Of a DNA stretch of 64,000 nt, positions 20,278 through 60,925 are shown piece after piece. Each line of letters begins with the position of its first letter. Within the stretch, counting starts at the first letter, position 1. The translations under genes and the position numbers were made by a program. The stretch covers positions 124,001-188,000 of the forward strand of contig NZ_JABFHF010000007.1 in the NCBI RefSeq assembly GCF_015476655.1, in the 5' to 3' direction. Source of the DNA: Aquiflexum lacus. GTDB lineage: Bacteria; Bacteroidota; Bacteroidia; Cytophagales; Cyclobacteriaceae. A model generated the notes under the pieces. It saw only the letters and a program-made list of their open reading frames with translations. It did no database searches and was not told the origin of the DNA.

Positions 20278-21273
20278 TCAATCCGGGATTTTGTAGTATG
20301 CTTTCACAGCCTTATAGTCTTTCAAATTTACAGGAGCAATCCTTCCTGAGGTTGGAGTCCCCCCAGGAATTATTACATACCTGAAACTAACATCAGTGCC
20401 TATAGGTATGATTCCCATCGCATTATCTTCATTCGAAAGTGTCATTAAGATTTTATTCAATTGCAAATAATGGGTCAATCTTTGGCTTTTCAATTGAGTA
20501 ATGGTCTGTGTGATTGGAAGAGGTTGGACTATATCAGGGAATAAATCAAACCTGATAAATACTGCTACAGTTCCCCTATCTACAATCCCGGAAGTTACTT
20601 GAGGCTCATCTACGGTATAAACTATGCTGTTTCGGCCAAAAAACATCGTATTTGCACTCCATCTGGACTCATCAAATGGTATCCAATCTGAGTAAATGAC
20701 ATTTGCCGTACCGGCTTCTCCTTGAGGTCCTGTTTCTCCTTGTGGACCCTGAGGTCCTATTGGACCAGTCGGTCCTCTATCGCCTTGAGGTCCTGTTGGT
20801 CCAGTCGGTCCTTGAGGTCCAGTTTCTCCTTGAGGCCCTCTTGGCCCAGTGGGTCCGGCAGGGCCTTGTGGTCCTGTTTCACCCCTAGGACCCGCGGGCC
20901 CCTGAGATCCGGTTTCTCCTTGAGGTCCGGCGGGTCCTGTCGGTCCGGCGGGACCTTGAGGGCCTGTTGGTCCTTGAGAGCCAGTTGGTCCCTGAGGTCC
21001 ACTTGGTCCCGCAGGTCCCTGTGGCCCAACAGGCCCTCTTTCACCAGCTTCTCCTTGAGCTCCCTGTTCTCCATCTCTTCCTGCTTCTCCTTGTTCACCC
21101 TGCGGACCCTGTTCACCCTGAGGTCCTTGTTCGCCAGGCTCACCCTGAGGTCCTCTTTCACCCCTTGGACCTTGGATTCCGGGAGGGCCCATAATGGGTT
21201 CATCATCACTGACACAGGAAACAACCGCGAAAGCAACCATTACAAATAAGCAAAGCCTTATCAATGTTTTCAT
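20278..21273 (-). CDS. Collagen-like (Gly-X-Y) repeat lipoprotein
   Basis: A 331-residue lipoprotein (lipobox VVSC, Cys 20) with 53 uninterrupted Gly-X-Y triplets at about 29-187, many GPQ, GPT, GPA and GET, then a globular C-terminal domain of about 140 residues. Such repeats form collagen-type triple helices, so the protein is probably a trimeric surface stalk with a C-terminal head. The ATG at 21273 is chosen over an upstream ATG at 21318 because it begins the signal peptide. The gene precedes a second lipoprotein gene by 38 bases. The head domain is not recognised. Confidence 0.88.
20713..21189 (-). repeat. Coding Gly-X-Y triplet repeat tract
   Basis: A 9-base-periodic, GC-rich tract encoding 53 collagen triplets. 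It creates long open frames in every phase on both strands, which are not genes. The GC content is visibly higher than in neighbouring DNA. Confidence 0.9.
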
Positions 21274-51927: not shown

Positions 51928-52842
51928 ATGAAAAAAATTGAGTCAGTCGCTTTCGTTTTACCATTCCTAATTGCCTTATGTTTCTGCCAAAACCCAGAAA
52001 AATCCATCGAATTTACTTTTGAGGAACATCAGTATGACGTTGAGGATTGGTATGCAAAAAGGGTAGCCTCTTTAAAAGCAGAAGAAGGATGGCTAAATTT
52101 AACTGGTCTATATTGGTTGGAAGAAGGAGAGAATACATTCGGTTCAGATCCTAAATCTGATTTACAACTTGAATCAGAGCTGTTCCCCACTTCTTTGGGG
52201 ATTTTTGAATTGGAAGATGGTAAGGTCTTTTTTACTCCCAAAACAGGTGGTATAAAAACCCAAGATATAGAATTGGAAGAAAGAACCTTGATTTTTGATT
52301 CTAAAAATAATAAGGAGCCTTACAAAATTGCCTATCAAAGCCTGAAATGGAATGTCATCAAAAGATTGGATGCTTATGGTGTGCGACTTAGGGATTTGGA
52401 AGCCACCGAAGTTACCGAGTTTGAAGGGATTGAAAGATATCCGGTTTCTTTGGAATGGCGATTTGAGGCAAAATATATTCCATATGAACCTGTTAAGGAG
52501 ATAGCCATTACCAATGTTTTGGGTCAAACAAGTCAAAATCCCTGTCCGGGTTATGTGGAGTTTCAAAAAGGTGGTAAGAGTTATAGGATAGATGCATTGG
52601 ACGAAGGGGATGAGTTGTATTTGATTTTTGCAGATGAGACGAGTGGGGGAGAGACTTATGGCGGCGGAAGGTACATCTATGTCAAAAAACCAGAACCTAA
52701 TGGAACCACTATTTTGGATTTTAACAAAGCCTATAATCCCCCTTGTGTGTTTACCCCACATGCAACCTGCCCATTACCGCCAAGACAGAATATACTTGAT
52801 TTGGCGATTAATGCAGGGGAGAAGAATTATGGGGAGCACTGA
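51928..52842 (+). CDS. DUF1684 family lipoprotein
   Basis: A 304-residue protein, probably a lipoprotein (ALCFC). The DUF1684 fold covers about 40-300: WYAKRVASLKAEEGWLNLTG, LYWLEEGENTFGSD, YGVRLRD, GGGRYIYVKKP, and a C-terminal YNPPCVFTPHATCPLPPRQN. The function of the family is unknown. The gene is followed by a long AGANNNN heptamer tract on its coding strand, beginning 67 bases after the stop codon. Confidence 0.87.
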   Translation: MKKIESVAFVLPFLIALCFCQNPEKSIEFTFEEHQYDVEDWYAKRVASLKAEEGWLNLTGLYWLEEGENTFGSDPKSDLQLESELFPTSLGIFELEDGKVFFTPKTGGIKTQDIELEERTLIFDSKNNKEPYKIAYQSLKWNVIKRLDAYGVRLRDLEATEVTEFEGIERYPVSLEWRFEAKYIPYEPVKEIAITNVLGQTSQNPCPGYVEFQKGGKSYRIDALDEGDELYLIFADETSGGETYGGGRYIYVKKPEPNGTTILDFNKAYNPPCVFTPHATCPLPPRQNILDLAINAGEKNYGEH

Positions 52843-52909
52843 AATTAAAGGATGAAGGATGAATTATAAAGGATGAGCTTGGTTTGACTAAATCAAGGTG
52901 TTGAAATAA

Positions 52910-53014
52910 AGTACCATGAACAATGTACCAAGAACCAAAAAGCGAGAACCAAGATTCAAGAGCCAAGAATAAAGATGCGAGAACCGAGAAGCGAGATACG
53001 AGAGTCAAGAGGAA
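52910..53014 (+). repeat. Degenerate heptamer repeat (AGANNNN), 15 units
   Basis: Fifteen consecutive 7-base units in one register. From 52931 onward 11 of 12 begin exactly AGA (for example AGAACCA, AGATTCA, AGAGCCA, AGATGCG, AGAACCG, AGATACG, AGAGTCA), while the other four bases vary, usually with C and a purine at the end. Confidence 0.85.
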
Positions 53015-53080
53015 CCAAGATTTAGAAACATTAAAGTAACATTTTATTCTGGCTTCTAATCAAAAAAAAATAGTCAAAAA

Positions 53081-53212
53081 ATGAAAAAACAGCATCTCCC
53101 GACCAAACTTTGTCCTGTATGTAACCGCCCTTTTGCTTGGAGGAAAAAGTGGGAAAAGAACTGGGAAAATGTCAAATACTGCTCTAAGAAATGTTCAGGA
53201 AAAAATCCCTGA
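53081..53212 (+). CDS. DUF2256 family small zinc-binding protein
   Basis: A 43-residue protein. The two CxxC-type pairs C11/C14 (CPVC) and C34/C38 (CSKKC) flank a conserved basic aromatic stretch [19 protein letters not shown], the signature of DUF2256. It is predicted to be a tiny zinc ribbon of unknown role. The ATG at 53081 follows an A-rich leader. Its last three codons and the stop form part of a long terminator hairpin. Confidence 0.85.
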
Positions 53213-53257
53213 GTAGCCTGCTTGGAGATTCTCCAAGCAGGCTACTCAGGGATTTTT
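53201..53257. terminator. Long perfect bidirectional terminator
   Basis: A perfect 27-bp stem (53201-53227 with 53231-53257) with a 3-base loop ATT, A5 at one end and T5 at the other. It overlaps the 3' end of the DUF2256 gene and stops two bases short of the stop codon of the convergent protease gene, so it probably terminates both. Confidence 0.92.
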
Positions 53258-53259
53258 AA

Positions 53260-55725
53260 TCAATATTCAAAATCGCAAATTAAATCGGTAGTGCCGATGG
53301 GCGCGCCATCGGGGATAGCCAACTCTGCAGGGATGCTGAATTCTTCTTTTTGGTTGAGGAAGGTATTGATTTTATCGGCCAAGTATCTATTGAAATCTTC
53401 GTTGGTTGCTTTTGCTTGAAGGGATTTGGAAGCTTCGGTTTTATTTTTTGAATCTTTGTTCCAATACAAATAGGCAATTTCCCTGAGTTTATTTCTGCTG
53501 ATGGCCTTGACAGAGGCAGTCGCCCTAGGATCTTTGGACAGGTTGATCAAATAGTCCGTCATCTTGTTCTGTATCATCAGATTGATTTCTCCCTGATAGG
53601 TCCCGTCAAAATCACTTCCAAATACCTGCTTGGTTGTCTTGTCCAAAACCTCTGTAAAAGATGGCAATGCATTGTCAAATAACTTTTGTTGGTGCAACCT
53701 GTTTGCCCTTCCTGCTTCAAACATGAACCCGAAAGTCATGTCAACAATATTTTCTCCGGGAGCCAAAGGATCAAAATTCAATCCGTTCCTTGATGGGAAT
53801 GTCTCCCTGTTTCGGGAATAACCCATGGGACGGGGTGGAAGTCTGTCGATGATTTGATTGGGGACTGCCAATTGGTTGGGATGAATCGTGAATAGCAGGG
53901 CATCCAAAGCGCCATTTTGCTTTGAAGCTTCCAATCTGGATTGGAATCTTTGGTTGTCACCTTTTATCTTATAAGTGTAATCCAAGCCTCCCAAAAGCTT
54001 GCTTGTCGCTTCTATCTGATACCTGTGCATCAAGAACAAAGGTACAAGCACTTCTTCCATCAAGGCCTCCGGTTGGTTGTCATCAATGGCGTTCAACCCA
54101 AAAGTATCAAGCTTTTTGCCGCGCATTTCCAACATCCTCATCAATTCAGCAGAAGCAGACTCGCCATTGTCCCAAAGATGGGAGGTAGGATGGCTACCAC
54201 TTGGATGTCTGGAATCTGTATCTGAAATAAATGTGTGGCCTGCTGCATAGGTGTCTTCAAGCAGGTTATTTAAGTGGCTTTCCTCAGTTTCACCTTCAGG
54301 AACAGGCTCATAACCATACCGGATAGCCCATTTATCCCAATCACCGATTTTATCATCATAGGCATCGCTGAGGTCGATATTTCCAGCGGCATCCATTTTG
54401 ATTAAGGGGTATGGATAATCCATAACGGAAGCCCTATTGGTAGGAGACGAGGCATAAGCATGTGCCAAGCCAATGGTATGACCAATCTCATGGGCAGAAA
54501 GCTGTCGCAGTCTGGCCAAAGCCAATTCAAGCATTTCAGGGTTTTTGGGTTTGCCATCTTCAAAGGGTTGCAATAAACCCTGCGCTATCAGATAATCCTG
54601 ACGGACTCGTAAGGAACCAAGAGAAACATGTCCTTTCATAATTTCCCCTGTTCGGGGATCCCTTACAGATGAACCATAAGACCAACCCCTTGTTGAGCGG
54701 TGTACCCATTGGATGACGTTGTACCTCACATCCATGGGGTCCATGTCTTCAGGAGCCAATTCTACCCTATACGCATTTTTGAATCCTGCAGCTTCAAAGG
54801 CTTCCGCCCACCAATTTCCTCCCTCCAACAATGCGGAACGTACCGGTTCGGGAGTTCCCCTGTCAAGGTAATACACGATGGGTTTGATCGGTTCTGAAAC
54901 TGCCGCTTTGGGGTCTTTCTTTTCCAGTCTATGTCTTGAGATGAATTTCTTTTCCATTGGCCCACCTATTGGAGAAGTGAAGTCCATGTAGCTGATATTG
55001 AAATATCCGGCCCTTGGGTCAAATTCCCTTGGTTGGTAATCATCATCAGGAAGCTCTATAAAAGAATGTCTTTGTCTCACTGTAACTGATTCCGGAGAAG
55101 GAGTAACCGACCGGATATAACCTCCTGTTGGCGTACCGGTCACAGTCACAATTGCCTCTACTTCGGTATTTTTCGGAAAATTTTTGGTCATAGGGTAATG
55201 CAATGCACTTCTACTAGGTTCGGGTTTGTAGGTTCCCTGCTTGGCTCTTCCAAGGGTTTCGACGACCATGTGGGCATCCTGCATGTAGAATGTGGTGGCA
55301 TCAATCAGGTGTTTTCCTCCTTCTGTACTGCTGATTTCAAATCCCCAAAGCACAGATTCCGCAAAGGCATCCTGAACTGATTTGACCTCAGCTGGATTGT
55401 CACTATAAGCCCTAAAGTCATAATTCTTATGCACCAACAATAATTTATTGCCTGCTTTTCGGAACTCAACGATTCTGGTTCTGCCAAGTTGACCACGATC
55501 AAGGCCAATGTCATTGGATCCTATACCTGCCGGCATGGAATTGACATAGAGGAATTCATGGTTGAGTTTATCTATTTCCAGGTAAATCTTCCCCTTTTCT
55601 TCATCGGTGTAGAAAGTAATGAACCCTTCTTTCTTGGACAGCTTACTTTTATCAATACTTTGGGAAAAAGCCGGGATGATGGAATAAAATCCAAGACAAA
55701 AGAGCAATAGTAATGTTTTTTTCAT
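53260..55725 (-). CDS. Zinc-dependent metalloprotease (DUF5117/DUF4953 type)
   Basis: An 821-residue exported protein (signal peptide to PAFSQ). A DUF5118/DUF5117-like N-terminal region (about 30-230) is followed by a metzincin-like catalytic domain with HEIGHTIGLAH starting at H412 (zinc ligands H412, H416 and H422, base E413) and a Met-turn-like SVMDYP. A DUF4953-like C-terminal region completes it. It should hydrolyse proteins in the periplasm or outside the cell; substrates are unknown. It is 62 bases downstream of the HhH outer-membrane protein gene on the same strand. Confidence 0.9.
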   Translation of the reverse strand: MKKTLLLLFCLGFYSIIPAFSQSIDKSKLSKKEGFITFYTDEEKGKIYLEIDKLNHEFLYVNSMPAGIGSNDIGLDRGQLGRTRIVEFRKAGNKLLLVHKNYDFRAYSDNPAEVKSVQDAFAESVLWGFEISSTEGGKHLIDATTFYMQDAHMVVETLGRAKQGTYKPEPSRSALHYPMTKNFPKNTEVEAIVTVTGTPTGGYIRSVTPSPESVTVRQRHSFIELPDDDYQPREFDPRAGYFNISYMDFTSPIGGPMEKKFISRHRLEKKDPKAAVSEPIKPIVYYLDRGTPEPVRSALLEGGNWWAEAFEAAGFKNAYRVELAPEDMDPMDVRYNVIQWVHRSTRGWSYGSSVRDPRTGEIMKGHVSLGSLRVRQDYLIAQGLLQPFEDGKPKNPEMLELALARLRQLSAHEIGHTIGLAHAYASSPTNRASVMDYPYPLIKMDAAGNIDLSDAYDDKIGDWDKWAIRYGYEPVPEGETEESHLNNLLEDTYAAGHTFISDTDSRHPSGSHPTSHLWDNGESASAELMRMLEMRGKKLDTFGLNAIDDNQPEALMEEVLVPLFLMHRYQIEATSKLLGGLDYTYKIKGDNQRFQSRLEASKQNGALDALLFTIHPNQLAVPNQIIDRLPPRPMGYSRNRETFPSRNGLNFDPLAPGENIVDMTFGFMFEAGRANRLHQQKLFDNALPSFTEVLDKTTKQVFGSDFDGTYQGEINLMIQNKMTDYLINLSKDPRATASVKAISRNKLREIAYLYWNKDSKNKTEASKSLQAKATNEDFNRYLADKINTFLNQKEEFSIPAELAIPDGAPIGTTDLICDFEY

Positions 55726-55787
55726 GATAGGTGGTTTTGTTTCGAAGTTAAAAAAAAGGTTCGACTTGGCTTTACCGATAATGGAAA

Positions 55788-57887
55788 TTATCTGTTGAAT
55801 TGGTACCTCAACTGGAAAACGGTTTCAGTTTGTCGAGAACCGTTGATTTGTTGTAGCCCCGTTCCGATGACTTCCCGATCTGTGTAGATGGTTCTTGAAA
55901 ATCTGGCCCAAACACTCAGTTTTGGACTCAGCCTGTATTGACCCAAAACATAATACCGCATCCCCTGACCGCTCAAAGCAGGAATGGAAAATTGCCAAAG
56001 CACATTCCTTTCATAGATAAATTGCCTGTTGTCCCAATCTTCGGTATCAAACAAGGCAACTCTCGAAGAGATTCTCCATCTCTGAAAATCCACATTCACA
56101 TCCTGACTGATGGCAAATCCGGTGGTTTTATTCCCATTGAAATTAAATGAACTGGCCATCACCCGGGATTTGATACTCCAATGCTTGTCAATACCATAAT
56201 CCAAGTTGAATACATAATTCCATCTATTCCCCTGACTGAGCAGATAGGAGGATTGAAAAGAGGGGTATTCACTGATGTTTCTGGCTTTGGATTCCTCTCT
56301 GATCTGGACAAATAGCAACAACTTTCTGGAAGGGGAGTAGGCAAACCGGGTCAACCATTCATGCCCCGAGGAAGGTGCATACATCCTGTACCGCAGCCAG
56401 GGAAACTTAAAATAATCATAGTAAAATGACCAGGTGTATTTTTGATTGGGCTTGAAGTTAAGACCAAAATATAGCCCATGCTCGTTAATGGGCCTGGTGC
56501 CTTCCGAGAATGCATTTCCATAGAAGCTATGAAAGTTTCTGTCAAACCTTCTCCAAAGCACCGAAAAACCCAGTTTGGGATGTAGGGAACTCATCATGCC
56601 CAGAATATTTCCTTTACCTCCACTTTTGGAAAAGGCAGATTCCCCAAAGAAAAAGTAATTTTGATAGTTGTAGGCAAAATAGAGGCTATGGACATGGTTC
56701 TCCTGTCCATAAAATTCAAATTGGTTATAGATTTGCGGGTTCCTGATAAAAGGTTGTCCGAATCTGGTGAAGAGTGAATTGACACCGAGTTGAAGGCTTC
56801 GGTTGGGACTGTTATAGTGGATATTCCCGCCCAAGTTGCTTTCCCGGATCCTGCTTTTGTTTGCAATTTCGGTTGGTGTCCGGTGAAGACCATTGCTTTG
56901 AAGTGAGGTGATGATGGCTTCTTCCCTTTCCAAGGTGTCGATTAGAATACTCAGATTCCCATCCCTTGGGGCATTTGATGCCATCAAGGTAATCTTTACC
57001 GGTCCAGCTTGATAAGTAGTGGAGACACCCCTGAAAAACCCAAATTCAAGCGCTGCCGTGTAGGGTCTGATACCTATGGAACTTCTTCGGACCGTGGTGA
57101 TGGTTTCTCCCCCTTTGCCCACAGCGAATCCGGCACCGTAAACCAAGCCCTGCCCAAATTGCATTTGGAAATCACCTATTGAAATGGCTTTCCATTTCCC
57201 TTGATTGTAAAGTGTGACATGGTAAGAGAAAAAGTTGAACCCATACCGTTTGGTAGCGGTATCCCAAATAAACTGTTCCCCCGGATCTTTGTCAATGGTA
57301 AATCCAAAGCTGAAATCTTTGCTGTGCTGTACCCGAAACCTTCCATATAGGTTGTTGGCGCCACCAAGGTACCTGCTGCTAAGCCTGCCGCCACTCAAGG
57401 TGTCAGGTGGTGTGAAGCCTCTTCTTGTCTCCCAAACTCTGCTGTGTCTAAAGATTAAATAGGCATCCCTTGATTCCATGATCCTTTGGGAAAGTGGTCC
57501 ATGGATTTTTTTACTGTCATCCAAAACCACAAAGGGCAACAATTGGAAAATCGTTTCCAGATCAAATTCGGGGATTGCCTGTAGTTCATATAAGGATAAT
57601 AGTTTGCCGAAATTATTCCTGTATTCCATAAAACTGTTGATCTGGATCGGGCTTAAAATGTAAATGGATTTCAGCTCCTCAGCATTGGTCTTATTGAGGT
57701 TGATGGGATTCAGAAAAACCTGGAGCAAACTCTCATACAGGTCTTCATAATTGTCGTCTGTTCGCTGGATTCCAAACAATTCCTCAACAAAGTTCTCCAA
57801 ATTGATTTCCCCTTTTCTATAGGTCTGGGCTTTTCCCGGAAAACAGAAAAAGATGACCAAAAAACTGATTGACAAAAGTATTTTCAT
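55788..57887 (-). CDS. Helix-hairpin-helix outer-membrane barrel protein
   Basis: A 699-residue protein with a signal peptide to GKAQ and helix-hairpin-helix (ComEA-like) motifs at about 55-115 (NPINLNKTNAEELKSIYIL; LLSLYELQAIPEFDLETI). It then has many alternating strands ending in QTETVFQLRYQFNR, typical of an outer-membrane barrel. The HhH part may bind DNA or protein; a DNA role is not shown. Its start overlaps the stop of the upstream PorV-like gene by four bases (ATGA), so the two are translationally coupled and probably work together. Confidence 0.82.
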   Translation of the reverse strand: MKILLSISFLVIFFCFPGKAQTYRKGEINLENFVEELFGIQRTDDNYEDLYESLLQVFLNPINLNKTNAEELKSIYILSPIQINSFMEYRNNFGKLLSLYELQAIPEFDLETIFQLLPFVVLDDSKKIHGPLSQRIMESRDAYLIFRHSRVWETRRGFTPPDTLSGGRLSSRYLGGANNLYGRFRVQHSKDFSFGFTIDKDPGEQFIWDTATKRYGFNFFSYHVTLYNQGKWKAISIGDFQMQFGQGLVYGAGFAVGKGGETITTVRRSSIGIRPYTAALEFGFFRGVSTTYQAGPVKITLMASNAPRDGNLSILIDTLEREEAIITSLQSNGLHRTPTEIANKSRIRESNLGGNIHYNSPNRSLQLGVNSLFTRFGQPFIRNPQIYNQFEFYGQENHVHSLYFAYNYQNYFFFGESAFSKSGGKGNILGMMSSLHPKLGFSVLWRRFDRNFHSFYGNAFSEGTRPINEHGLYFGLNFKPNQKYTWSFYYDYFKFPWLRYRMYAPSSGHEWLTRFAYSPSRKLLLFVQIREESKARNISEYPSFQSSYLLSQGNRWNYVFNLDYGIDKHWSIKSRVMASSFNFNGNKTTGFAISQDVNVDFQRWRISSRVALFDTEDWDNRQFIYERNVLWQFSIPALSGQGMRYYVLGQYRLSPKLSVWARFSRTIYTDREVIGTGLQQINGSRQTETVFQLRYQFNR

Positions 57888-58711
57888 TTTTCAGCAAATA
57901 CATAATTGAAAGAAAAATGATGAAAACTCCCCAAGGTCGGATGTTGGGTCATGGCATAATCCAGGTGGAAATTGCGAGGTTTGAATCCAATACCGAAAAA
58001 CAACTTGCCCGGATTGGTATTCATACCTGCCCTTGCCCAGAACCTGTCCAAGAGGTTGTATTCGACCCCGGTTTTGATCAGAGGGTCGAGTAGGATGTCT
58101 TTTTCGGCCTCAATGTTGACCATGACTTTTTCGGATGGGCGATAGGAAATTCCAGTCTTTACCACTGTAGGCAACCTTTCCAAGGAGTTTTTTCCATATT
58201 TTGACATGGTAATGTTGTACACATGCGCTCCAAAAAACAGTTCGGGTGTGAGTTCGGCCACCCCACCAAACTCCAGCAATGGGCTTGCACCTCTACCAAA
58301 TCCCTCGATGCTGGTCTGGAAATAGCTGACTTTGATACCTAGACTTGTGATTCCCAATTGGTTTGAAAATCCGATCCCGATCTGGCTTTGGGAAAACAGT
58401 TCCGATCCAAAACTAGAAACTCCCAACCCAAACGCCGAATTCTCCCCCTTTATCACCGCACCTGCTGAAAGCGTGGTCAGCTCATTTATATTCATTCGAT
58501 GGTCATAGGCAAAAGTGACCTGTGAGGAAGAAATATGGCTCATTGCACCGATATTGTTAAAAATACTCCAAGCATCACCCAAAGTGGAATGGGCATTTCC
58601 GATACCCACACTTCTTGCGCCTCTGGGCAAGGCTTCGAGTCCAGATTGTGCCAAAACCTCTTCCTTTACCAGGACAGCACCTAAAAGAAATATAAAAACA
58701 AGTCTTCCCAT
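57884..58711 (-). CDS. PorV/UPF0164-like outer-membrane protein
   Basis: A 275-residue protein with a signal peptide to VLAQ and a FadL/PorV-like beginning (LPRGARSVGIGNAHSTLGDA; SIFNNIGAMS), then beta-barrel strands and an aromatic C-terminus (FSFNYVFAEK). PorV and PorQ are outer-membrane barrels linked to type IX secretion, but this shorter paralogue's role is unclear. The ATG at 58711 is preferred over a TTG at 58744 because it begins the signal peptide. It overlaps the next gene by ATGA. Confidence 0.78.
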   Translation of the reverse strand: MGRLVFIFLLGAVLVKEEVLAQSGLEALPRGARSVGIGNAHSTLGDAWSIFNNIGAMSHISSSQVTFAYDHRMNINELTTLSAGAVIKGENSAFGLGVSSFGSELFSQSQIGIGFSNQLGITSLGIKVSYFQTSIEGFGRGASPLLEFGGVAELTPELFFGAHVYNITMSKYGKNSLERLPTVVKTGISYRPSEKVMVNIEAEKDILLDPLIKTGVEYNLLDRFWARAGMNTNPGKLFFGIGFKPRNFHLDYAMTQHPTLGSFHHFSFNYVFAEK

Positions 58712-59004
58712 GGGTATAAAAAATAAGATCCAACAAAAAGCCAACAGAATAAATTTAAAAAAGCCGGATATCAGATAAAAGTAAGGGGATGATATTATCC
58801 GTTTAATTTCGAGGTAGGCTTCAAAAGTTTAATCATGTCTCTCTTTCCGCCGATGTTTGTGTCTCCACAAAAATCCCTCTAAAGAAGAAGCGAAGTTTCC
58901 CCAAAACCATCAAGGATTCAAACCTTCCCTTTTTTTGGCGGAAAGCCAAATTCACTTTTTACATTGTTTCGGCCAAAAACCGGAAATTACCTTCATTTTA
59001 ACCC

Positions 59005-59065
59005 CCGGATTTTATCCGGGGTAAATAACCTATTGGTATTTAACCCCTGCCGGGGTTTGGACTAG
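59005..59065 (+). repeat. Two-hairpin dispersed element, copy 1
   Basis: A 61-base unit: first hairpin CCGGAT-TTT-ATCCGG, linker GGTAAATAACCT..., second hairpin AACCCC-TGCC-GGGGTT. It aligns without gaps, at 46 of 61 positions, with copy 2 on the opposite strand. Confidence 0.75.
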
Positions 59066-59103
59066 TGGCTTCATCCTAAACAAATCAATTTGGCAATAGA
59101 ATT

Positions 59104-59164
59104 CTAAAAAAAATCCCGATAGGGATTAAACACCGCAAGGTTATTTGCCCCGGATGCAATCCGG
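59104..59164 (-). repeat. Two-hairpin dispersed element, copy 2 (inverted)
   Basis: A 61-base unit in inverse orientation to copy 1. The second hairpin is AATCCC-TATC-GGGATT: relative to copy 1 a C-G pair is replaced by T-A, a compensatory change that keeps the stem. The two copies flank a 38-base spacer and could form a long cruciform. Confidence 0.75.
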
Positions 59165-59195
59165 TGGAAGAAAAGATCATTCAATCAAAATCTAC

Positions 59196-59246
59196 CAACC
59201 CCGACAGGGGTTGAATTTGTCCTCATGGATTAATCAATTTGGCTAA
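59196..59246 (+). repeat. Two-hairpin dispersed element, partial copy 3
   Basis: The hairpin CAACCCC-GACA-GGGGTTG is followed by a tail ending AATCAATTTGGC. The same tail follows the second hairpin of copy 1 (about 59083-59094), so hairpin plus tail is repeated directly. Confidence 0.6.
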
Positions 59247-59425
59247 AGCCGTGAGAAAACAAGGTTCTTCCATTATCTTCCAGCTAAAGCAGGAAGCAAT
59301 TGATGGAAGGCAAATTGTTAGGGTATTATTCTGAAATTGGATTTCGTAAATTACCATTAATAGGTACAAATCCTCTAAATTAACTACTGACCAAGTCTTG
59401 TTTCCCCAATTCTCGGGACAGGCTT

Positions 59426-59474
59426 TGTTTCTTGGCTCTTGGCTCTTGTCTCTCGCCTCTAACCTCTCGCCTCT
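59426..59474 (-). repeat. Degenerate heptamer repeat (AGANNNN), 7 units
   Basis: On the minus strand seven units in perfect register all begin AGA: AGAGGCG, AGAGGTT, AGAGGCG, AGAGACA, AGAGCCA, AGAGCCA, AGAAACA. They begin nine bases after the stop codon of the Omp85-like gene on its coding strand. Confidence 0.85.
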
Positions 59475-59482
59475 AAAAAATC

Positions 59483-60925
59483 TCAAAAAGGTGCCCTGAA
59501 ATTAAAGAAAAATGCACCTTCATTTTGGTTGTTGAGGGAGTATTCAAATCTGAAAACTATGTCGTAGAGCGTGACAAGGTCCAATCCAAGGCCGTATCCG
59601 AAAAGATATTGGTTGGTCAGTCTCAGGTTTTCGGGAAGCTTATTTTTGTCATTGACAAAGCCGTGGTCAAAATTGCCACTGAGGTAGAGCTTTATGGGAA
59701 AGTATGCAAATTCATCAAAGGGAACATATTTGCCGATATCATAGCCTACATTGATCAGATTGAAGCGGAGACTGTTTTTGTGGACAACGGTCTGCTGTCC
59801 CTCGACCACATTCAGTTCATAGCCCCGGATAAAAAACGGATTATATCCAATACCCCTTACCAAGGTAAATGGTTGCCTATCTCCCAAAAAAGCATTTAGG
59901 GAAAGTCCTGATACAAAATGGAATTTTTCATTGAACTTCAGGTACTTGTTTGCATTGATGGTAAATTCCGTGTCATGAACATTATCACTTCCAAAGATAC
60001 CATACCTCGTTACACCGATATTGAGCAATTGCCCTTCAGTGGCATAAAGCACATTATCCCTATTGTCATGTCTGAAATTGTAGCCCATGACGAAATAATT
60101 CAGCTTGTTGCTGCCATGGAGAAAATAATTGGGGTTTTGGGTAAAAACATCCTCATTGATCAAGGTATTGTTGAATCCTAAAGTCACCAAGTGAAAGTTG
60201 TAATAACTGCCCCTGTAAGTGTATCTTAGAAATGCAGATCGGTTTCTCCGCAGGACATCTTCGTTTTCATTGGTGTAGAAAACCTGCCGATTGTTTGCAG
60301 ACTTGACCTGAATGGTTTTTTGGGTAAAATAGGTCAACTGTGCTGCGATACCGTGTTTTTGTTTCTTGTCAATGTATGGGATACTGTATAGCATCTCAAA
60401 CGACTTTGTAAATCCCAATTGACCTCCTATACGCAATTTTTCGTTTCTTCCCCCTACATTATTATGCATGAGCCTTGCCCCATAATTCACTCGGGAAAAA
60501 TCCCTGTTTTGGTTGATCCACCATTCTGCCAAATTCCTGTCCGCCAAATTGAAAATGATATTGGGCAAAATATACCAACGCTCAGTCACAGCTACAAGCA
60601 GTTCAATGTCTTCGGTTCCGGTAAAAAGTGGTGTGATTTCTACATTGTTGAAAAGTTGTAGATTATATATTTTCTTTTGATCTGCCTCGATCATCAACAA
60701 TAATTCCGCCCAATCATACGTGATTCCTGTCTGAAGGTCTATTTCACGGAGAATGATGTTCTTCTTTGTTTTTTCATTTCCAATAATAAAAATATTATTG
60801 ATCACAACTTTATCCGGAATCTGAAGACTATCCAACAGACCATCTTGAGCATAGACCATTTGGACTTGGGTTATACCAAAGCATATCAAGTAGAAAAGGA
60901 GGATATGTAATCTGATGTTTTTCAA
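59483..60925 (-). CDS. POTRA/Omp85-family outer-membrane barrel protein
   Basis: A 480-residue protein with a signal peptide to VYAQ, one POTRA-like domain (about 33-115, INNIFIIGNEKTKKNIILRE) and a 16-strand-type surface-antigen barrel with the L6-loop motif FFIRGYE and a terminal FNFRAPF. It resembles short TamA/BamA relatives of Bacteroidota and could insert or secrete outer-membrane proteins or lipids. Its substrate is unknown. The start codon is TTG at 60925, because no in-frame ATG precedes the signal peptide. The gene is divergent from yidD. Confidence 0.88.
   Translation of the reverse strand: MKNIRLHILLFYLICFGITQVQMVYAQDGLLDSLQIPDKVVINNIFIIGNEKTKKNIILREIDLQTGITYDWAELLLMIEADQKKIYNLQLFNNVEITPLFTGTEDIELLVAVTERWYILPNIIFNLADRNLAEWWINQNRDFSRVNYGARLMHNNVGGRNEKLRIGGQLGFTKSFEMLYSIPYIDKKQKHGIAAQLTYFTQKTIQVKSANNRQVFYTNENEDVLRRNRSAFLRYTYRGSYYNFHLVTLGFNNTLINEDVFTQNPNYFLHGSNKLNYFVMGYNFRHDNRDNVLYATEGQLLNIGVTRYGIFGSDNVHDTEFTINANKYLKFNEKFHFVSGLSLNAFLGDRQPFTLVRGIGYNPFFIRGYELNVVEGQQTVVHKNSLRFNLINVGYDIGKYVPFDEFAYFPIKLYLSGNFDHGFVNDKNKLPENLRLTNQYLFGYGLGLDLVTLYDIVFRFEYSLNNQNEGAFFFNFRAPF

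Follow-up and report, generated by a model that had tools for sequence, protein, structure and literature searches.

The spacer between a DUF1684 gene and a DUF2256 gene of Aquiflexum lacus (Bacteroidota; Cyclobacteriaceae) carries a degenerate array of 7-nt units with the grammar AGA-N-N-C-R (AGANNCR, where R is A or G), located in a 64,000-nt stretch of contig NZ_JABFHF010000007.1 (positions 124,001 to 188,000), which is hereafter called the window. It belongs to a population of hundreds of fast-changing heptamer tracts in this bacterium and its relatives, and we estimate a probability of about one half that it was made by a local slippage-type process and holds no selected site. Most of the tracts that follow a co-oriented gene begin at its stop codon, which is more suggestive of a DNA process that makes repeats where genes end than of a conserved binding signal for a protein; if the slippage reading holds, the tract itself would be without a conserved regulatory task.

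Unit grammar and abundance of the heptamer tracts

Fifteen heptamers at 52910-53014 of the window share one register, and 11 of the 12 heptamers from 52931 onward (tract 52931-53014) open with AGA, which bears out the description given in a first-pass annotation of this DNA. When the entire window was dinucleotide-shuffled 40 times, no series of 12 consecutive heptamers had more than 5 with an AGA start, compared with 11 in the tract. As the units are degenerate, Tandem Repeats Finder called the AGANNCR tract weakly. The same annotation held that the last four bases of each unit vary freely; the grammar proved to be stricter. Among 357 units of the A. lacus genome, the A, G and A of positions 1-3 each reach 96-98%, C accounts for 75% of position 6 and a purine (A or G) for 93% of position 7; free variation is confined to positions 4-5. 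Of the 12 units of the window tract, 10 have C at position 6 and all 12 have A or G at position 7. The first three units at 52910-52930 (AGTACCA, TGAACAA and TGTACCA) belong to a second family, AGTACNA, and the entire DUF1684-DUF2256 spacer is a mosaic of the heptamer families AAGGATG, AGTACNA and AGANNCR. This mosaic starts 5 nt past the DUF1684 stop codon; the AGANNCR tract itself starts 88 nt 3' of that stop, with AAGGATG and AGTACNA heptamers occupying part of the gap. The RNA of the tract has no stable predicted fold (z=+1.1).

A genome-wide search of the kind proposed in the annotation, made with the 24-mer (AGANNCR)3AGA, revealed 355 matches in the 5.94-Mb A. lacus genome versus 22 for the reversed pattern, and 299 matches in a complete genome of the same genus (G001). 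In a sample of 59 genomes, four further genomes gave 31 to 180 matches and a few gave 2 to 8; the majority of genera in the family had none. Across the phylum, matches were found in 45 of 396 sampled genomes, including several genomes from other families with clearly degenerate tracts. For loosely scored arrays the reversed-pattern control was useless, because a reversed tract also has AGA at period 7, and the exact pattern and shuffles were used instead. The period-7 signal on which the annotation had staked its reading is present in other spacers: intergenic DNA of A. lacus and G001 shows excess identity at lags 7, 14 and 21, and at no other lag up to 42, barring lags 1-2. An unbiased lag scan over 464 kb of the A. 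lacus genome recovered 89 period-7 segments versus 8-27 at lags 5, 6, 8, 10 and 11. The same scan found 35 period-7 segments in 200 kb of a genome from another family of the phylum (G317), and one in 200 kb of G012, a tract-free member of the Cyclobacteriaceae.

Unrelated heptamer families (AGANNCR, AGAYNTR, AGATNKT, GGATGAA, AGTACNA and AGACSGR) stand side by side in the genome. Along the AGANNCR tracts, position 7 is blocky, with a lag-1 identity of 0.70 versus 0.49 after shuffling within arrays, a control used in place of a Markov simulation of unit strings, which was biased by rare units. Four successive units are almost never shared between tracts at different loci (0-1 instances); the tracts are therefore not pasted copies of one master, and a copy-and-paste origin from a master tract was rejected.

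Several further repeats were observed in these genomes. Four AGANNCR tracts at G000:C14:50171-50851 lie on successive tandem copies of about 190 bp, two of which are identical over 77 bp. The Cognataquiflexum genomes have an excess of period-9 tracts besides those of period 7 (26 and 18 segments), as well as repeated spacers with ACAACCTGACAACGCGAAGCAG and GAGACCCTTCGTGCCTCAGGGTGACGG. AGANNCR units frequently enclose a hairpin, AAAGCCTGYCCCGA..TCGGGG (5/6 in the A. lacus sample and 9/14 in G001 within 40 bp of a tract), while none was seen in the G317 sample; its sites include L097:632-700 (minus strand), L045:8603-8660 and L075:19258. This GCCTGYCCCG hairpin was rejected as the cause of the tracts, since it adjoins a minority of them and is restricted to this genus, with no instance in the G317 sample.

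Placement, orientation and turnover

Placement was counted in detail in four lineages (A. lacus, G001, G317 and Cognataquiflexum). As genes were called simply as the longest open reading frames (ORFs) of at least 100 aa, only their stop codons were trusted, and the expected counts assume a uniform position within the gap. Where the gene on the 5' side is co-oriented, 55 of 77 AGANNCR tracts start within 30 nt of its stop codon (15.0 expected; median distance 5 nt), while of 58 tracts antisense to a downstream gene, 2 terminate 30 nt or less from its stop (median 168 nt). This sense-strand rule was found in 47/68 tracts when flanking ORFs of at least 200 aa were required, and in 38/55 with ORFs of at least 300 aa, the antisense count then being 1/31. 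Other heptamer families in the two congeners follow the same rule (AGAYNTR 9/11, AGATNKT 13/14, GGATGA 8/13 and AGTACNA 9/10), with a combined antisense count of 3/35; the AGACSGR family follows it weakly (4/9).

Tracts were also found within genes. At G001:C1:1521198-1591786, a row of many paralogous large sensor genes includes tandem sensor histidine-kinase genes in which fourteen AGANNCR tracts are carried in frame, immediately after the H-box (HEI.NPLNFVNNFSEV); these tracts were excluded from the placement counts. The fourteen near-identical tracts at 1.52-1.59 Mb had been considered as a cassette array, a candidate that was dropped when they turned out to be tandem histidine-kinase genes with an in-frame tract. 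As these tracts lie in coding sequence, a tract can exist where it is translated. A further arrangement was observed in G317 (L148-L156), in which AGANNCR tracts form inward-facing pairs, one per intergenic edge and 50-500 bp apart, that constitute imperfect inverted repeats.

The AGANNCR tracts of G001 are also oriented with respect to replication. The origin and terminus were estimated from the GC skew of samples, which switches once near 1.1 Mb and again between about 4.1 and 4.65 Mb. In a set of 73 tracts, 57 run along the leading strand (57:16, p=1.5e-6), and this orientation is retained in 16/22 tracts (16:6) for which both flanking genes oppose replication. The regions of this set were partly picked for holding tracts, the first ones from a listing of forward matches, and a whole-chromosome list, which partly overlaps the 73-tract set, is therefore the fairer test of orientation. 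In this list of 57 distinct tracts, 45 run along the replichore (p=1e-5), with p ranging from 7e-7 to 1.5e-4 across the origin and terminus positions tried; after merging of neighbours the count is 34/44 (p=4e-4). The other heptamer families of G001, including AGAYNTR and AGACSGR, showed no significant strand bias.

Comparison between relatives revealed that the tracts change rapidly in whole units. Among named relatives, the nearest found were Cognataquiflexum rubidum and C. nitidum, with 64% identity in the DUF1684 protein, and in both species a tract occupies the same place, 1 nt past the stop codon of the same gene. Between these two species, the 75 nt 3' of the tract are identical, and the tract itself shows whole-heptamer differences together with substitutions at positions 4-6. 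At other loci of this genome pair, one tract shows a difference of exactly four units (28 nt), and a second carries an expansion of many AGARRCG units that is confined to one species. Such insertions and deletions in exact unit multiples do not support the exclusion of slippage in the first-pass annotation. Between A. lacus and G001, a tract can recur at the same place with largely different units, be shared in part or be missing; at the window locus, G001 retains the AGTACNA part and has lost the remainder. Few orthologous tracts could be aligned, and variation in 7-nt steps was compared at few loci.

Features of the window

The principal features around the tract, together with a second AGANNCR tract of the window, are listed in Table 1. 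The order DUF1684, tract, DUF2256 is retained in G001 and in both Cognataquiflexum species. A likely terminator, composed of a long, near-perfect stem and a T-rich stretch after it (53207-53255), lies directly 3' of the DUF2256 stop. Elsewhere in the window, period 9/18/45 repeats of the GGTCC type at 20771-21132 probably encode a collagen-like Gly-Pro-X protein on the minus strand.

Table 1. Heptamer tracts and flanking genes in the window
Feature	Coordinates	Strand	Basis
AGANNCR heptamer tract, 12 units, 11 with AGA start	52931..53014	+	Sequence, register, shuffles
Three AGTACNA-family units, same register, directly 5' of the AGANNCR tract	52910..52930	+	Recurs in other spacers and at the corresponding locus of G001
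AAGGATG heptamer family, about 4 copies, from 5 nt after the stop codon	52848..52876	+	Tandem Repeats Finder, period 7; conserved in G001
Upstream co-oriented DUF1684 gene; the heptamer region is anchored on its 5' side at the stop codon of this gene (52840-52842)	51928..52842	+	ORF; Pfam PF07920, E=1.6e-43
Downstream DUF2256 gene, 43 aa	53081..53212	+	Pfam PF10013, E=6.1e-21
Second AGANNCR tract, 7 units, from 8 nt past the stop codon of a minus-strand gene	59426..59474	-	Sequence, register
480-aa ORF; its stop codon anchors the second AGANNCR tract	59483..60925	-	ORF list

Origin of the tracts and relation to known repeats

The first-pass annotation had offered two readings, selection on AGA or a mutational process, of which the latter fits better. 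Sister species differ in the order and content of units, with gain and loss of whole units, related genera are without tracts and some tracts lie inside coding sequence, and unrelated heptamers follow the same placement rule, all of which favor a mutational origin. We propose that the generating process would act in intergenic DNA, chiefly just 3' of stop codons and on the sense strand, and that the tracts may grow by strand slippage in a 7-nt step on the purine-rich strand. The purine-rich non-template strand might become exposed past the stop codon, where transcription would continue without translation; that such R-loop-like exposure anchors the tracts is the cause we prefer for the anchor, although it is a tentative and rather doubtful suggestion, and lagging-strand exposure during replication could perhaps combine with it. 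AGA..CR would be the part of the unit that has to re-pair in slippage and would stay fixed for this reason, with the NN between them free to drift.

Several observations weigh against this proposal. The NN dinucleotide at positions 4-5 is shared by adjacent units barely above chance (0.135 versus 0.104), and plain duplication of neighbours is therefore not the whole story; since ordinary slippage copies neighbours, an extra source of change at these two positions is needed. About a third of the tracts (about 30%) run antisense to their 5' neighbouring gene; in G317, 5/7 such tracts have their 5' edge 8-20 nt from a start codon. The R-loop step leaves the antisense tracts unexplained. RNase HI occurs in tract-rich and tract-free genomes alike, and its loss was rejected as a cause, as the enzyme was found in all 20 genomes. 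In addition, the proposal offers no explanation for a step length of seven.

Under the other reading in the annotation, selection would hold AGA every seven bases for a periodic contact of protein or RNA with the 3' untranslated region (UTR) or the DNA. The retention of AGA at 96-98% per position while NN varies, the sense placement past stop codons, which would put the motif in mRNA 3' UTRs, and the similar grammar in several families of the phylum all agree with such selection. We nevertheless regard it as unlikely, as the upstream gene is antisense for about 30% of tracts, AGANNCR is oriented with replication also where the genes run against it, and the placement rule is shared by unrelated heptamers; moreover, tracts are missing from most genera of the family and are lost or replaced between congeners, and an Rfam search of 52500-60000 gave no match at the gathering threshold. 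The orientation in G001 (45/57 distinct tracts along the replichore, 34/44 after merging) could instead mean that the tracts are leading-strand polarity marks, comparable to FtsK-orienting polarizing sequences (KOPS) and read by a translocase or a replication protein. This is very improbable, since the strand bias is confined to the AGANNCR family and is not seen in AGAYNTR, AGACSGR and others, no density gradient toward the terminus is evident by eye in the G001 tract list, tract-free genomes are complete and numerous, and the stop-codon rule would be left unexplained.

Leading-strand bias would also suit an enzyme of single-stranded replication intermediates, such as a TnpA-REP-like Y1 (HUH) single-strand DNA enzyme that nicks or re-joins the tracts and thereby makes or reshuffles them. 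Among genomes of the sampled class, order and family, a TnpA-REP-like Y1 enzyme was found in 17/17 genomes with degenerate AGANNCR tracts versus 33/81 without (p=3e-6, with no phylogenetic correction), and the association was also found among genomes of at least 4 Mb (p=4e-4). The rve transposase, used as a control, was not associated (13/17 versus 52/81, p=0.41), and a generic richness in mobile elements behind the Y1 association was rejected on this basis. Against a role of the enzyme stand the lack of phylogenetic correction, the many genomes that have it and are without tracts, and the copy read (L274:8477-8926), which is flanked by its own palindromes, GCCCTGAAAGGGC, and not by heptamers. 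The co-occurrence is a lead only, and we consider it quite unlikely that the enzyme makes or reshuffles the tracts. The copy at L274:8477-8926 is a 150-aa TnpA-REP-type Y1 transposase with these palindromes and related CAGCCCTGTG elements on both sides, and relatives of it occur in 176/396 sampled Bacteroidota genomes.

Repetitive extragenic palindromic (REP) elements, which are associated with TnpA-REP (RAYT), resemble the tracts in being dispersed intergenic repeats, and this enzyme class co-occurs with the tracts; REP and bacterial interspersed mosaic elements (BIMEs) are, however, built on palindromes, whereas the tracts are direct repeats without inverted pairing inside the tract. The short tandemly repeated repetitive (STRR) sequences of heterocystous cyanobacteria are dispersed intergenic heptanucleotide repeats (cited in PMC4692102). 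They share these traits with the tracts and differ in motif, a distinction drawn by description only.

Although the first-pass annotation knew of no described function for this form in Bacteroidota, comparable heptameric intergenic repeats, placed in the same way, are on record for Xanthomonas, Nostoc and Beggiatoaceae (PMC4692102; PMC4679880). In Xanthomonas and Nostoc, GGGNATC and GGGGA(C/T)T heptamers are dispersed in intergenic DNA (Rehm et al., 2015; PMC4692102). They lie near the 5' neighbouring ORF whatever its orientation (in Xanthomonas 28 nt, versus 160 nt to the 3' ORF), either on the sense strand within 50 bp of stop codons or antisense just upstream of starts; they are scarce between divergent genes, sometimes form inverted pairs and vary in length and sequence between relatives (PMC4692102). 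G-quadruplexes were proposed for them, the idea was cited that polymerase contact length favours heptamers, and no leading/lagging preference was seen (PMC4692102). The period of seven, the intergenic dispersal, the placement, the scarcity between divergent genes, the inverted pairs and the variability are common to those repeats and ours. In contrast, the motif described here is not G-rich and its units are degenerate, several unrelated families coexist per genome, and AGANNCR follows the leading strand (57:16 in G001). Despite the same period and ORF-relative placement as in Xanthomonas (PMC4692102), the idea that the tracts are likewise G-quadruplex elements has practically no chance of being right: four runs of three or more G were found in 0/129 AGANNCR tracts, which refutes the quadruplex for this motif by its sequence.

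TAACTGA direct repeats have been reported in Beggiatoaceae, Cyanobacteria and some Bacteroidetes (MacGregor, 2015; PMC4679880). Their units are near-identical, lie mainly upstream of starts and were proposed as translational regulatory sites (PMC4679880). They resemble the present tracts in 7-nt insertions and deletions between related strains and in the intermixing of other heptamers; the tracts here differ in having a degenerate AGANNCR unit located mainly behind stops. In terms of 7-nt tandem units, many intergenic loci, proximity to the 5' ORF and its stop codon, and 7-nt-step variation between relatives, the tracts agree with heptameric intergenic repeats. As period and placement are shared and the G-runs are not, we read them as a new non-G-rich variant of this class.

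Previous explanations of heptameric intergenic repeats invoke G-quadruplexes for one group and translational control for another. The same placement of a degenerate motif that forms no quadruplex and is not mainly at start codons argues that placement reflects a common generating process and not the function of the motif, and so do the other heptamer families of the same genome that follow the stop rule. This shared placement across unrelated motifs is, in our opinion, the most interesting point. In its broadest form, a single sequence-independent process would make heptamers at gene ends in Bacteroidota, Cyanobacteria and Gammaproteobacteria, with a sense-strand start at stop codons, a fixed 7-nt step, two refreshed positions per unit and, in Bacteroidota, a need for a TnpA-REP-like enzyme; we put this forward as a speculative and improbable extension. 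The stop-codon anchor together with the leading-strand bias makes the question of why seven bases directly testable.
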